This document shows positions 1,658 through 11,457 of a DNA stretch of 21,304 bases, in pieces. The notes beneath the pieces were generated by a model. The model saw nothing but the letters and a program-made list of their open reading frames with translations, did no database searches and had not been told where the DNA came from. The DNA is from a virus. The DNA is taken from the IMG/VR virus record IMGVR_UViG_3300027582_000020, positions 1-21,304 of that record; one strand, 5' to 3'. Position numbers and translations under genes: made by a program. Within the stretch, counting starts at the first letter, position 1, and each line of letters opens with the position of its first letter.

Positions 1658-1771
1658 TCATAATTTCTCGTCTTGGTATTTGTCATGCTGCTCGTCTGCC
1701 TGATCGTAGTAATCGCGCTCCTCGCATTCGTCATCTGACGGGTAGTCGTACCCTTCGTTCCATGTACTCAT
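1658..1771 (-). CDS. Very acidic small phage protein, 37 aa
   Basis: ATG 1771-1769 overlaps the TGA stop of the 103-aa gene in an ATGA junction, and the frame closes with TGA at 1658-1660. The product has 14 Asp/Glu among 37 residues plus five Tyr and one Trp, so it is strongly acidic. Such small acidic phage proteins sometimes mimic nucleic acid or bind host enzymes, but nothing in this one proves that. The call rests on the coupled start and its position in a gap between two coupled genes. Confidence 0.5.
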   Translation of the reverse strand: MSTWNEGYDYPSDDECEERDYYDQADEQHDKYQDEKL

Positions 1772-2079
1772 TTGATTGAAGTTTCGAAGTTTGGGACTCC
1801 CAAGGTGTACCCTCGGCGAGTGTCATGTGATATGAGCATGGGTCGGATTTCGACAGGGTCATTGATGCCCCATATATCCTTGTCATCTGTGATGACTCCT
1901 TGCTCTTTCAGGTAAGTGTATGATTGTCCTACGATATCGCCTATCGCATAGTCGTATGATAGCCACTTGGTGGTGTTGTTGCGTTCGTCCTTGATTCGGA
2001 CTCTTGCACCCTTGGTGTTGGTTGGACCGAAAAACTCGATGTGCAAGGCACGGAGTCGGGGAATGTTATGTGTGTTCAT
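1768..2079 (-). CDS. Phage hypothetical protein, 103 aa
   Basis: The start chosen is ATG 2079-2077 (MNTHNIPRLRALHIEFFG...), 3 nt after a perfect AAATCTCAAT element. A longer frame back to 2139 would translate the leader and hammerhead ribozyme B, so it is rejected. The N-terminal segment HIEFFGPTNTKGARVRI, followed by a Trp-Leu-Ser-Tyr-Asp-Tyr stretch, matches a pattern I know from small uncharacterised phage proteins; no function is established. Its mRNA would begin with a 25-nt leader if the upstream ribozyme cleaves. Its stop overlaps the start of the 37-aa gene (ATGA). Confidence 0.75.
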   Translation of the reverse strand: MNTHNIPRLRALHIEFFGPTNTKGARVRIKDERNNTTKWLSYDYAIGDIVGQSYTYLKEQGVITDDKDIWGINDPVEIRPMLISHDTRRGYTLGVPNFETSIK

Positions 2080-2082
2080 GTG

Positions 2083-2092
2083 ATTGAGATTT
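2083..2092 (-). promoter_or_regulatory. AAATCTCAAT leader element, copy 3
   Basis: A perfect copy ends 3 nt before the ATG of the 103-aa gene and 12 nt after the predicted hammerhead cleavage site at 2105/2104, so it would lie in the ribozyme-generated leader. Confidence 0.7.
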
Positions 2093-2098
2093 AGATTT

Positions 2099-2148
2099 GA
2101 CACAGACGCTTCGCAGCGTTTCGACCACTTAGGTCTCATCAGTGTGCC
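2099..2148 (-). ncRNA. Type I hammerhead ribozyme B
   Basis: All core elements are present on the minus strand in order. Stem I 5' strand GGCACA (2148-2143), CUGAUGA (2142-2136), stem II GACC-UAAGU-GGUC (2135-2123), GAAA (2122-2119), stem III A-CGCU-GCGA-AGCG-U with a GNRA loop (ends 2106), C17 at 2105, then the stem I 3' strand UGUGUC (2104-2099). Predicted cleavage is between 2105 and 2104 after GUC. Stem I is the open helix, hence type I. The UGA inside CUGAUGA is the stop codon of the 58-aa gene. Compared with copy A, stem II has two compensatory pair changes and stem I one (C-G for U-A), which supports selection on the fold. No internal loop for tertiary contacts is obvious in the short stem I, so the rate cannot be predicted. 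Confidence 0.9.
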
Positions 2149-2315
2149 TGAGTATGAAGCCTGTGGATTTCATCCACTAGCCACCACCTCTGTTCGTCTG
2201 TGAACGCCCCGTATGTCTGAAGCTGACGCCCTTCGAAGTACTTCACTTTGTCCACGTTCTGCTTGAACATGTGGTAGGCAATCTTGGGTAAGTACCCGTT
2301 TTCGTATTTGCTCAT
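2139..2315 (-). CDS. Small phage protein between two hammerheads, 58 aa
   Basis: The start chosen is ATG 2315-2313 (MSKYENGYLPKIAYHMF...), 3 nt after a perfect AAATCTCAAT element. A longer frame to 2420 would translate the upstream ribozyme and overlap the preceding gene, so it is rejected. The 58-aa product is amphipathic, with a Trp-Trp pair in a helix-like stretch (DEQRWWLVDEIHRL). Its last two sense codons GCA CAC form the 5' strand of stem I of hammerhead B, and its stop UGA is part of that ribozyme core. If both ribozymes cut, the gene is released as a monocistronic RNA of roughly 235 nt. Function unknown. Confidence 0.7.
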   Translation of the reverse strand: MSKYENGYLPKIAYHMFKQNVDKVKYFEGRQLQTYGAFTDEQRWWLVDEIHRLHTQAH

Positions 2316-2318
2316 GTG

Positions 2319-2328
2319 ATTGAGATTT
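2319..2328 (-). promoter_or_regulatory. AAATCTCAAT leader element, copy 4
   Basis: A perfect copy ends 3 nt before the ATG of the 58-aa gene and 11 nt after the predicted cleavage site 2340/2339 of hammerhead A. Confidence 0.7.
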
Positions 2329-2333
2329 TGATT

Positions 2334-2383
2334 GATACAGACGCTTCGCAGCGTTTCGTCCATGCAGGACTCATCAGTGTACC
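2334..2383 (-). ncRNA. Type I hammerhead ribozyme A
   Basis: On the minus strand: stem I 5' strand GGUACA (2383-2378), CUGAUGA (2377-2371), stem II GUCC-UGCAU-GGAC (2370-2358), GAAA (2357-2354), stem III with GCGA tetraloop (A15.1-U16.1 plus four pairs, to 2341), C17 at 2340, then stem I 3' strand UGUAUC (2339-2334). All invariant core bases are intact. Cleavage is predicted between 2340 and 2339, leaving a 24-nt leader before the ATG of the 58-aa gene. The UGA in the core is the stop codon of the 76-aa gene. The fold has stem I open (type I). Covariation against copy B in stems I and II supports the structure. Confidence 0.9.
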
Positions 2384-2604
2384 TTGGGTGCTTCGTCCCA
2401 CTCGTCCTTGGGTATGTCATTCCAGTCTGTCCAGTACATCATCTCATCCTCGTACGCTTCGTCCAGTGTAGCGTAGTCGTAGTTCTGACAGATGCGGAGT
2501 GCATCCTTTTCATACTTTACGTAGTAGAATCCAAGACCTTCGAAGTACCAACCCTCGAACATAGGTTCGTTGGTGATTGTGCAGTAGCGTGGTGCTTTTT
2601 CCAT
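2374..2604 (-). CDS. Acidic aromatic-rich phage protein, 76 aa
   Basis: The start chosen is ATG 2604-2602 (MEKAPRYCTITNEPMFEGW...), downstream of an AAATCTCAAT element (gap 10 nt here) and of the promoter at 2642-2673. The 17-codon upstream extension would translate the leader and is rejected. The product is acidic and unusually rich in Tyr and Trp, with short segments such as CTITNEPMFEGWYFEGLGFYY and EDEMMYWTDWNDIPKDEWDE. Two Cys occur, but no zinc-finger spacing is seen. Its last codons GTA CAC and stop TGA are built into hammerhead A. First gene of the ribozyme-punctuated operon; function unknown. Confidence 0.75.
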   Translation of the reverse strand: MEKAPRYCTITNEPMFEGWYFEGLGFYYVKYEKDALRICQNYDYATLDEAYEDEMMYWTDWNDIPKDEWDEAPKVH

Positions 2605-2614
2605 GTGTGAGATA

Positions 2615-2624
2615 ATTGAGATTT
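2615..2624 (-). promoter_or_regulatory. AAATCTCAAT leader element, copy 5
   Basis: A perfect copy in the leader of the 76-aa gene. This is the only copy with a 10-nt gap to ATG; the other five have 3 nt. The inserted bases are TATCTCACAC. Confidence 0.65.
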
Positions 2625-2641
2625 TGATTTGGAAGACGATG

Positions 2642-2673
2642 CAAATATACAACATTCAAACACCGATGTCAAA
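2642..2673 (-). promoter_or_regulatory. Bacteroidota-type promoter for the ribozyme operon
   Basis: On the minus strand TTTG (2673-2670), 20 nt, then TATATTTG (2649-2642): a full match to the Bacteroidota consensus. It lies 38 nt upstream of the ATG of the 76-aa gene and just beyond the stop of the DUF7178-like gene. No other promoter is seen before 1437, so one transcript would cover the genes at 2604 to 1469. Confidence 0.85.
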
Positions 2674-2706
2674 TTTATTTTCATTTCCTCAGTGTTTACA
2701 GGGGTT

Positions 2707-3306
2707 TCAGAGCCATCGGTTTCGGATGGTCACCCAGATGACAGCCTGCAACTCGTAAGGCTTGTACCCCATGCTCCGTGCCAGCTTGCAGAAGTGTGCG
2801 CTCAGTCGGTCGTATTGCAGGGGCGTTACGCTTGTCTGTACGTCCTTGGGTGTCTGCGATGTAGTCACGAAGGCACGAAGCATCCACTTGTCAATCGTAA
2901 CAACAGACTCATCCATCATACCCACATTGAGAGCGAAAGCGTGAGTTTTTCTAGCCTTTCGGAGCATTTCGATATCTCCACTCAAGATCGCCCACGCTCT
3001 GCGCTTGTTGTTTGTGTATGTGCATACCTTGACAGACTCCATGGATTCACCATTCACGAAGGCTTGGATGAGATTGAATGCATCAATCTTGTTGCGCTCC
3101 CACTTGTTGTTGGGTGAGAGTGCGCTGATGACTGCAGCAGCCACGACCTTGGATATGTTGAACGTTACCGATAGGTACTCAGCAAACTCCATGGCTGAAG
3201 CATACCACGCTTTGCCTTCGCGGATTTCTTCCTCCGTCGCACGCCCCGTCCACGATTTAACGTGAGCGGTGACGCGCTTCAGTGGGTATGTGCTTAGGCT
3301 AATCAT
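2707..3306 (-). CDS. DUF7178-like phage protein, 199 aa
   Basis: ATG 3306-3304 overlaps the stop of the preceding basic protein (ATGA), so the two are translationally coupled. The 199-aa product matches the pattern I know for an uncharacterised phage and actinobacterial family annotated as DUF7178. It has WYASA near residue 34, AAVISALSPNNKWERN (about 57-72), KTHAFALNV (about 120), VTIDKWMLRAF (about 135-145), a helical LTP-type segment, and a C-terminal YELQAVIWVTIRNRW. The layout of helices around a conserved SP-x-x-x-W and an invariant D-K/V-W/H recalls helix-hairpin-helix base-excision proteins, but I do not claim an activity. Role in DNA metabolism is inference. Confidence 0.75.
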   Translation of the reverse strand: MISLSTYPLKRVTAHVKSWTGRATEEEIREGKAWYASAMEFAEYLSVTFNISKVVAAAVISALSPNNKWERNKIDAFNLIQAFVNGESMESVKVCTYTNNKRRAWAILSGDIEMLRKARKTHAFALNVGMMDESVVTIDKWMLRAFVTTSQTPKDVQTSVTPLQYDRLSAHFCKLARSMGYKPYELQAVIWVTIRNRWL

Positions 3307-3947
3307 GCTTCAGCGTTTAGGAGTGATTCAGCCTCCAATCGTGAGGCTTCTGCTGAAGATTGCTCAGCTTGGATTTTCGAGCGTCGCACACCCTCCTCAG
3401 GTGTCTCTCCTGGCAGGAGCTTGAGTGCAAGTTGCTCACGCTTGGATGCCTTACGCTCCACCACAGGCACCTCCATTCGAGGCTCGAAAGGCTGAGCATC
3501 TTTGCCTGTCAGAGCGTGAACAACCTTCGTTTTCTTGACCTTGCCAACCTTGTCGGCAGTCGCTGTCCGTGCTTGTGCTTGCTCAAGCCCATCTTCGCTT
3601 GAACGCTTGGGACGCTTGACAGCCTTCGTCACCCTAGCAGGCTTGGAAGCCTTAGCAGGCTTTTTCTTACGCTTGGGCTTGGTTGTGGGCTCAGGGTCAG
3701 GAATATCATGGAACATGATAAGAGAAACCAACTGCGCTTTGGTCATTTTCAGCAGTCGCTGCTCATCGGTCATCGTAGGCTTGGCTGCCTTGGGTGCCTT
3801 GGCTGCCTTGGGTGCCTTGGGTGCCTTGGGCTTGGGTGTCTGTGCCGCACGCTCTGCAGCGTATCGAGCCTTGTTAGCAGCCTTTCTTTCAGCCTTAGTG
3901 AACTTACGCCCCGTCTCAGGGCAGTGTGTTGGTGTGTATGTTGACAT
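3303..3947 (-). CDS. Lys/Ala/Pro-rich basic protein, histone H1-like low complexity, 214 aa
   Basis: The start chosen is ATG 3947-3945 (MSTYTPTHCPETGRKFT...), 3 nt after a leader element; the longer frame to 4058 would translate the promoter. Residues 1-30 carry CPETG and a Lys/Arg-rich helix. Residues about 37-57 are a PKAPKAAKAPKAAK repeat, 60-78 a short folded-looking helix (DEQRLLKMTKAQLVSLIMF), 86-115 again Lys/Ala/Pro-rich with KRKKKP, and the C-terminus is a charged helix. Composition is like histone H1 tails or bacterial AlgP/HctB-type DNA-binding tails. It probably binds nucleic acid as an early phage protein (inference). It heads unit A and is coupled to the DUF7178-like gene. Confidence 0.75.
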   Translation of the reverse strand: MSTYTPTHCPETGRKFTKAERKAANKARYAAERAAQTPKPKAPKAPKAAKAPKAAKPTMTDEQRLLKMTKAQLVSLIMFHDIPDPEPTTKPKRKKKPAKASKPARVTKAVKRPKRSSEDGLEQAQARTATADKVGKVKKTKVVHALTGKDAQPFEPRMEVPVVERKASKREQLALKLLPGETPEEGVRRSKIQAEQSSAEASRLEAESLLNAEA

Positions 3948-3990: not shown

Positions 3991-4022
3991 CAAAGGTAGG
4001 TGATTGGTTCAGTGAAGTCAAA
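3991..4022 (-). promoter_or_regulatory. Leftward Bacteroidota-type promoter of unit A
   Basis: On the minus strand TTTG (4022-4019), 20 nt, TACCTTTG (3998-3991). Both boxes match the consensus. It is the leftward promoter of the divergent control region and would give a leader of about 35-40 nt. Confidence 0.85.
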
Positions 4023-10098: not shown

Positions 10099-10189
10099 AG
10101 CCAGCGGACTTATCTATTGGGATGACTATAACTTTGATAATCAGCACAATACGGTGTGTGACTTAAAGGTAAACTTTAAGCTCTCTTAG
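10037..10189 (+). CDS. Possible overlapping small protein, 50 aa
   Basis: A 50-codon frame runs from ATG 10037, overlaps the coiled-coil gene by 62 nt, and ends at a TAG that is itself bases 8-10 of the tRNA at 10180. The N-terminal part (MGKSNKPKTTQEDSQKDSQN) is low complexity and lies mostly in the overlap. The C-terminal part (GLIYWDDYNFDNQHNTVCDL) occupies the otherwise empty stretch and looks protein-like. A weak call: it could be a real overlapping gene or a chance frame. Confidence 0.35.
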   Translation: MGKSNKPKTTQEDSQKDSQNEASGLIYWDDYNFDNQHNTVCDLKVNFKLS

Positions 10190-10253
10190 CTCAGTTGGTT
10201 AGAGCATCCGACTCATAATCGGCAGGCCCCAGGTTCAAGTCCTGGAGGGAGCA
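10180..10253 (+). tRNA. tRNA with CAT anticodon (elongator Met or Ile2)
   Basis: 74 nt. Acceptor GCTCTCT pairs with AGGGAGC, discriminator A, CCA not encoded. D-arm TAGCTCAGTTGGTTAGAGC. Anticodon loop CTCATAA with anticodon CAT; the anticodon stem has four good pairs and a terminal mismatch. T-arm CCAGG-TTCAAGT-CCTGG. The D-loop and non-initiator first pair exclude initiator tRNA. CAT could be elongator Met, or Ile if C34 is modified to lysidine by the host enzyme. Confidence 0.92.
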
Positions 10254-10256
10254 CTC

Positions 10257-10330
10257 GCACCAGTAGCTCAGTTGGATAGAGCATCTGCCTTCTAAGCAGA
10301 CGGTCACAGGTTCGAGCCCTGTCTGGTGTA
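10257..10330 (+). tRNA. tRNA-Arg (TCT anticodon)
   Basis: 74 nt, starting 3 nt after the previous tRNA. Acceptor GCACCAG pairs with CTGGTGT (one G-U), discriminator A, no encoded CCA. Anticodon stem TCTGC/GCAGA with loop CTTCTAA, anticodon TCT, reading AGA/AGG. T-arm ACAGG-TTCGAGC-CCTGT. The phage genes here use AGA and AGG often (for instance in the terminase and portal), which fits a codon-supply role. Confidence 0.95.
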
Positions 10331-10344
10331 CTAATTTAATTGAA

Positions 10345-11457
10345 ATGAAAAAACCAACAGTCTGTCTTAGTATGATCGTTAAGGACGAAGAGAAGGATAT
10401 CGAGAGATGTCTGAAGAGCGTCTATAAGTATATCGACTATTGGGTCATCATAGATACAGGGTCTACGGATAAAACCGTCAAGAAGATCAAATCTCTGATG
10501 AAGAACAGATTCAAAGTACCTGGGGAAATACATGAGCGTCCCTGGGTGGATTTCTCTCACAACAGGAATGAGTCTCTAGAGATCGCAGAGACCAAGGGGG
10601 ATTACGTTATGTTTATGGATGCGGATGATATATTCACTCCAGAGAAGTCCTTCTCAATGGATTTCTTAAGCGATAAGTATCAAGCATACTACTCTTACTT
10701 TAGGATTAATTCAAGTAAATTTAAAAGATGCCTAATAGTCGATTCCTCTACGGGCTGGAGATATAAAGGAGTCATGCATGAACATATTATCATCCCTAAG
10801 GACTCTAATCAGGCGATGATCCCAAATCTATTTATTGAGGCCAATGCTTCCCCCCTTAAGCGATTCGCTACAGAAGAGGAGAAGTACTTAAATGACGCTA
10901 AGATTATAGAGGAGGATTTATTGAAAGACCCTGAAAATACTAGAGGTTGGTTTTACTTAGGGCAGTGCTATGGAGATGCTAATGAGTATGAGAAATCCAT
11001 GGAGGCTTACGTTAAAAGGTCATCAATGGGAGGATTCAGGGAGGAAGTATATCTCTCCTTGTACAGGATAGCTTCGATTATGATTGAGTTAAAAAAACCA
11101 AAGATCGAGGTTATTGAAGCCTTATCTAAGGCTTGGGAGTATATGCCTTACAGGAAAGAGGCTCCATCTGCCCTCATGAGCGCGTTAATTAAGGATGGGA
11201 GGAACTTCTTGGCTTTTACTTATGGGGACATGACAGTAAAATCTATACAGGTATTTGGAGAGAGTAAAGAGCTATTTGAGATGGAAGAAGCCATCAATGA
11301 TATGTTCCCAAGGTATTATGGTCTGGCAGCTGAGAAGTGCGGGTTCTACCCCATCGCTATAGCTTCATATAAGATCCTGCTCAAGAATAATCCAGACACC
11401 ATAAAGTCAAAGGAGCTTCAGAAGAAAATTAAAGAATTAGAACTTAAGGTAAAATGA
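10345..11457 (+). CDS. GT2-type glycosyltransferase with TPR-like C-terminus, 370 aa
   Basis: The N-terminal GT-A fold is clear: VCLSMIVKDEEKDIERCLKSV (about 6-26), YWVIIDTGSTDKT (32-44), then the nucleotide-sugar and metal-binding DxD as VMFMDADDIF (D92, D94). Residues about 195-360 form repeated helical pairs, such as DPENTRGWFYLGQCYGDANEYEKSMEAY, of the TPR kind. This layout is known from SunS-like and other family 2 enzymes in which TPRs bind the acceptor. It presumably glycosylates a protein or cell-surface target in the cytoplasm. It starts 14 nt after tRNA-Arg and overlaps the next glycosyltransferase (ATGA). Likely an accessory gene; modification of virion or host surface is inference. 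Confidence 0.85.
   Translation: MKKPTVCLSMIVKDEEKDIERCLKSVYKYIDYWVIIDTGSTDKTVKKIKSLMKNRFKVPGEIHERPWVDFSHNRNESLEIAETKGDYVMFMDADDIFTPEKSFSMDFLSDKYQAYYSYFRINSSKFKRCLIVDSSTGWRYKGVMHEHIIIPKDSNQAMIPNLFIEANASPLKRFATEEEKYLNDAKIIEEDLLKDPENTRGWFYLGQCYGDANEYEKSMEAYVKRSSMGGFREEVYLSLYRIASIMIELKKPKIEVIEALSKAWEYMPYRKEAPSALMSALIKDGRNFLAFTYGDMTVKSIQVFGESKELFEMEEAINDMFPRYYGLAAEKCGFYPIAIASYKILLKNNPDTIKSKELQKKIKELELKVK

Follow-up and report, generated by a model that had tools for sequence, protein, structure and literature searches.

What do two hammerhead ribozyme motifs do at successive gene junctions of a phage genome? The window, by which we mean the whole 21,304-base virus record analysed here, holds two type I hammerhead motifs on its minus strand, HHR1 at 2383-2334 (cut predicted at 2340/2339) and HHR2 at 2148-2099 (cut predicted at 2105/2104). 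They lie 235 nt apart in the same orientation, each at the end of a gene. We consider it likely that these co-oriented hammerheads punctuate a short operon, A-HHR1-B-HHR2-C, transcribed from a single predicted promoter near 2672-2642. An initial annotation had proposed that a polycistronic RNA is cut here into single-gene mRNAs, and placement and recurrence still make this the best reading, in which the RNA would cleave itself.

HHR1 reads GGUACA-CUGAUGA-GUCC-UGCAU-GGAC-GAA-ACGCU-GCGA-AGCGU-C/UGUAUC and HHR2 reads GGCACA-CUGAUGA-GACC-UAAGU-GGUC-GAA-ACGCU-GCGA-AGCGU-C/UGUGUC, with the slash at the predicted cut. Both contain all invariant core bases (CUGANGA ... GAAA ... UH). Stem I, which carries the open end, has 6 bp, stem II has 4 and stem III, capped by a GNRA loop (GCGA), has 5; the cleavage triplet GUC fits the NUH requirement. 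The two differ by compensatory changes in stem I (U-A versus C-G) and stem II (GUCC/GGAC versus GACC/GGUC), and their MFE folds are exactly the three-stem hammerhead structure. The core, cap, triplet and both compensatory differences had been listed by the initial annotation, and all are correct. First-order Markov resampling of the window (300 rounds, both strands) never produced a motif whose stems were all 4 bp or longer. A covariance model (R1), built from 21 distinct phage hammerheads with the lineage of the window phage left out, scored HHR1 at 64.3 bits (E 6e-20) and HHR2 at 67.8 bits (E 3.5e-21) and matched the window only at these sites, the same two that had been annotated.

A check against the Rfam type I model had also been proposed earlier, with a score under threshold as a refuting outcome, and the scores did come out under threshold. 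RF00163 (Hammerhead_1) is the best Rfam match, and the window copies share its core and three-way topology; unlike the family as curated, they score 22.2 and 21.4 bits against a gathering cut-off of 34, a value that is a curation convention and not a property of hammerheads. The sub-threshold score reflects the model rather than the motif, because the hammerheads of seven other phage loci (L106, L107, L013, L016, L123, L126 and L162) also fall below the cut-off, without exception. We therefore rejected Rfam as the deciding test, since the whole phage hammerhead class lies under its cut-off, and phage type I hammerheads are thus overlooked by routine annotation. A description of this class-wide failure was not found in the papers searched, most subscription papers lying outside the search. 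RAGATH-1 (RF03152), a hammerhead variant family, has no match in the window and matches some phage relatives weakly, at 25-30 bits against a cut-off of 56.3.

The placement of the motifs ties them closely to the genes. The UGA stop of gene A (76 aa; 2604-2374, minus strand), at 2376-2374, doubles as the first UGA of CUGAUGA in HHR1, and the UGA stop of gene B (58 aa; 2315-2139, minus strand; weak match to phrog_7868), at 2141-2139, does the same in HHR2. Gene C (103 aa; 2079-1768, minus strand; weak match to phrog_3199) lies downstream of HHR2; the functions of all three genes are unknown. The annotated position at successive gene junctions is borne out by these stops, and what had been overlooked is that the stop codon sits inside the core and that the layout is widespread. 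After the predicted HHR1 cut, gene B would be left with a 24-nt leader (2339-2316, minus strand) that begins with a predicted 5'-OH UGUAUCAAUCAAAAUCUCAAUCAC and is followed by AUG; after the predicted HHR2 cut, the leader of gene C (2104-2080, minus strand) would be 25 nt long, beginning with a predicted 5'-OH UGUGUCAAAUCUAAAUCUCAAUCAC and again followed by AUG. The leader AATCAAAATCTCAAT..ATG precedes genes with and without a ribozyme, and the ribozyme would therefore give a 5' end to a standard leader. The genes and ribozymes share one orientation and have a single promoter-like site upstream (TTG ... TATATTTG; 2672-2642, minus strand), a match to the Bacteroidota-type consensus only. No terminator-like site was found on the minus strand between gene A and gene C. 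Upstream of the promoter-like site is a DUF7178/phrog_3842 gene (3306-2707, minus strand), which served as the query for finding relatives. The operon had also been called early; what was found is only that its genes diverge from the packaging and tail genes.

Which phage is this, and what does it infect? The plus strand carries genes for the terminase large subunit, portal protein and tail fibre, and the terminase matches in named records are mostly to Flavobacterium and Cellulophaga phages, at less than 50% identity. The minus strand has promoter-like sites of Bacteroidota type (TTG ... TANNTTTG) at 4021, 2672 and 1436, and downstream of each, within ~80 nt, come the leader AA(A)TCTCAAT and a start codon. 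Judging by such sequence signals, the host is probably a member of the Bacteroidota. IMG/VR relatives of the DUF7178 protein reach 97%, no DNA like window positions 1700-3310 was found in named phage records, and this lineage with Bacteroidota signals was seen here only in metagenomic contigs. Elsewhere in the window, tRNA genes for Met (CAT) and Arg (TCT) stand in tandem on the plus strand (10180-10331), directly followed by a glycosyltransferase-like gene (10345-11457). A structured, conserved RNA of ~165 nt with tRNA-like ends lies on the minus strand at 803-970, with copies at L170:5777-5952, L167:5503-5675 and L168:3161-3334. It has a closing stem of 7-8 bp (TAGCGATA/TATCGCTA), a D-arm-like hairpin, a long central arm and a T-arm-like hairpin (GTGGGTTCRANTCCCAC), an overall layout that recalls tmRNA; the RNA at 803-970 has no ARAGORN or Rfam match and no match in named phage records.

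Relatives of the operon show how ribozymes and genes travel. Gene A is 80-97% identical in L123, L126 and L129, and the promoter-like site matching 2672-2642 is found in these three and in L124. Both ribozymes are kept in L123 and L126, whose full records (68 and 78 kb, respectively) have no hammerhead hits beyond these two. In L124, gene A and HHR1 are absent together, and gene B comes directly after promoter and leader; in L129, A-HHR1 is followed by an unrelated gene, and in L162 and L165, B-HHR2 is followed by other genes. Homologues without a ribozyme also occur (gene A in L168, gene B in L125, gene C in L130 and L168), and the ribozyme is therefore not essential for these genes. The idea that a ribozyme belongs to the gene upstream of it holds locally, with B-HHR2 standing before three different genes, but fails as a rule because both directions are equally linked across all loci: mean stem II-III identity is 0.733 where only the upstream gene is shared and 0.729 where only the downstream gene is shared. 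That hammerheads persist while the genes on either side change argues for gene-independent punctuation over gene-specific control. As far as searched, such exchange of flanking genes around a persisting ribozyme is less well described.

The patchy presence among relatives would also fit motifs that are relics or selfish repeats without present function. We give this reading very little credence: all eight lineage copies have intact core bases, their stems I, II and III differ by compensatory substitutions, and L126 keeps hammerheads at two successive junctions although its gene B is only 70% identical. Within the lineage CUGAYGA and GUC/GUA are both permitted, GUA being seen once, in the L126 orthologue of HHR2. 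Both-side changes were counted at 4 stem pairs in the lineage copies, which come from related phages found by protein homology, and at 11 of 15 stem pairs in 21 other phage copies, covariation counts that lean towards structure because the aligned rows were picked for full pairing. The unbiased figure in support of the fold comes from a core-only pattern, which had 122 distinct matches in viral contigs; all three stems were present in 85 of the 122, versus 2.3% with shuffled flanks. The earlier suggestion of selection on the fold is supported, and the search of related phages that it had proposed showed both ribozymes kept in L123 and L126 and stems that stay paired.

The same layout extends well beyond this lineage, and many phages have several hammerheads in a row. 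A motif scan found hammerheads in series in L106 (8), L023 (7) and L107 (5), and the full record of L016 has 9 by model R1. For 141 of the 205 hammerheads that have an upstream gene, the stop of that gene falls between -14 and +1 relative to the core, and for 48 of these 141 it coincides with the core UGA; the next ATG follows the cut at a median of 26 nt (quartiles 24-30; similar in a smaller set). The order of stop, ribozyme, short leader and ATG recurs in about 200 phage hammerheads, and no description of the stop-in-core layout in numbers was found in the papers searched (most subscription papers were outside the search). Hammerhead pairs share the upstream gene alone in 50 cases, the downstream gene alone in 95 and both in 71. 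Could cleavage instead serve chiefly to eliminate or destabilise the RNA, as a negative regulator that lowers expression as in glmS, perhaps switched by a ligand, a protein or passing ribosomes? A stop inside the core would couple cleavage to translation of the upstream gene, which suits this idea, but one and the same arrangement accompanies unrelated upstream and downstream genes, and the flanks in a class of 82 copies show no additional conserved sensor domain; we regard negative regulation as unlikely. It was also considered that cleavage serves genes lacking Shine-Dalgarno sites. The leaders of genes B and C in the window have no such site, and the idea was rejected as a general rule; SD-like sites precede ribozyme-led genes at 0.40 versus 0.26 for other ORFs, and at 0.69 versus 0.36 in a second comparison.

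In the 82-copy class, stem I is 6 bp or longer and stem-loop II spans 13 nt. An A precedes stem I in 80 of the 82 copies, AA follows stem I, and loop II has the form U-N-A-N-U, while further out than A(-1) and this AA the flanks are nearly uninformative. A(-1) might have been a by-product of the stop codon, an explanation that we rejected, since 17 of the 19 members with a stop in the core keep it. These conserved features suggest a tertiary contact in which loop II may touch the outer end of stem I. Both HHR1 and HHR2 belong to the class. HHR1 has C at a loop II position that is A in 73 of the 82 copies, and its tertiary contact may therefore be weaker. The class pattern also matches 29 genome contigs (L178-L206), including Flavobacteriales, Saprospiraceae, Legionella and several archaeal MAGs.

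A further feature is that copies within one phage share stem I. Identity of its 3' strand is 76% within a phage and 36% between phages, compared with 58% versus 44% for stem II and 66% versus 59% for stem III. Stem I arms cross-pair at 5/5 positions in 52-56% of ordered within-phage pairs versus 6.6% between phages, and 12 of 45 genomes have arms that all fit one another (0/500 permutations). We did not find this within-phage sharing described in the papers searched, a set that left most subscription papers outside. Such interchangeable arms could mean that tandem cleavage and ligation yield circular or spliced RNAs, as in retrozymes or viroid-like RNAs, here a 235-nt gene B circle or an A-C product. 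By direct reading, the HHR1 5' arm pairs at 6/6 positions with the HHR2 3' arm, the A-to-C joining, but the arms for a gene B circle pair at only 5/6, with a C-A mismatch. Moreover, Perreault et al. (2011; PMC3088659) detected neither spliced nor circular products when they searched for them in their clusters, and a shared standard leader could also account for the common stem I. Such RNAs are, in our judgment, quite improbable in this operon, and just as improbable is the broader proposal that stem I arms are selected for rejoining, so that arrays would form circular or re-ordered phage mRNAs. The simplest reading of the common stem I is the standardised leader, and cassette exchange is another. 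A wobble asymmetry in stem I, in which the 3' arm is kept constant, counts 37 to 3 by pairs and is weak evidence because it is only 9 to 2 per genome and position. If rejoining were nevertheless true, the hammerhead arrays would form a reversible system for cutting and joining RNA.

How would punctuation work, on the reading we prefer? Genes A, B and C would be transcribed as one RNA from the predicted promoter at ~2672-2642, and each hammerhead would cut 3' of its GUC triplet. On the upstream side of the cut this would leave an mRNA that finishes with the stem III hairpin and one further nucleotide bearing a 2',3'-cyclic phosphate; on the downstream side, an mRNA with a 5'-OH and 24-25 nt ahead of its AUG. 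In this way each gene would obtain an mRNA of its own, with a short leader of the standard kind and a 3' end capped by a hairpin. Since 5'-OH ends and hairpin or cyclic-phosphate ends should resist common bacterial decay routes, the ends made by cleavage may stabilise these mRNAs. A ribosome that terminates at the upstream stop would cover the ribozyme core in which this stop lies, and cutting may be delayed or occur only between ribosomes.

Phage hammerhead clusters have been known since 2011, and the claim of the initial annotation to know of no described phage operon with ribozymes at successive junctions is contradicted by that work; the window pair adds another case. Perreault et al. (PMC3088659) reported multiple hammerheads flanking individual genes in prophages, with clusters in the Agrobacterium tumefaciens ardA region, Clostridium scindens and Azorhizobium caulinodans, and suggested processing into single-gene mRNAs. 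In their hands three arrangements cleaved in vitro and one (A. tumefaciens) in cells; their main text does not mention stop codons. Like those clusters, the window has serial hammerheads in phage DNA, on either side of single genes or of short blocks of genes. Unlike them, both window copies are type I, with a 6-bp stem I, a 13-nt stem-loop II and a stop in the core, and they belong to a lineage with Bacteroidota signals known here from metagenomic contigs. The HHphage ribozyme of haloviruses HF1/HF2 (PMC3088659) likewise precedes a start codon by a short distance; the phage transcript is polycistronic, and its mapped 5' end is no more than 3 nt from the cleavage site. HHphage differs in its variant core, is a single described copy and comes from an archaeal virus. 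In retrozymes and viroid-like RNAs, as here, two co-oriented hammerheads can release a defined RNA, whereas the RNAs released from the window would be protein-coding phage mRNAs. Later papers (PMC6155905, PMC10085705) still call the role of phage hammerheads an open question. For that question this lineage offers a clean natural series, with relatives that carry both ribozymes, relatives that carry one, and a relative in which gene and ribozyme were lost together. The general layout, a stop in or next to the core and then a leader of ~25 nt, makes the ideas of punctuation and ribosome gating directly testable.
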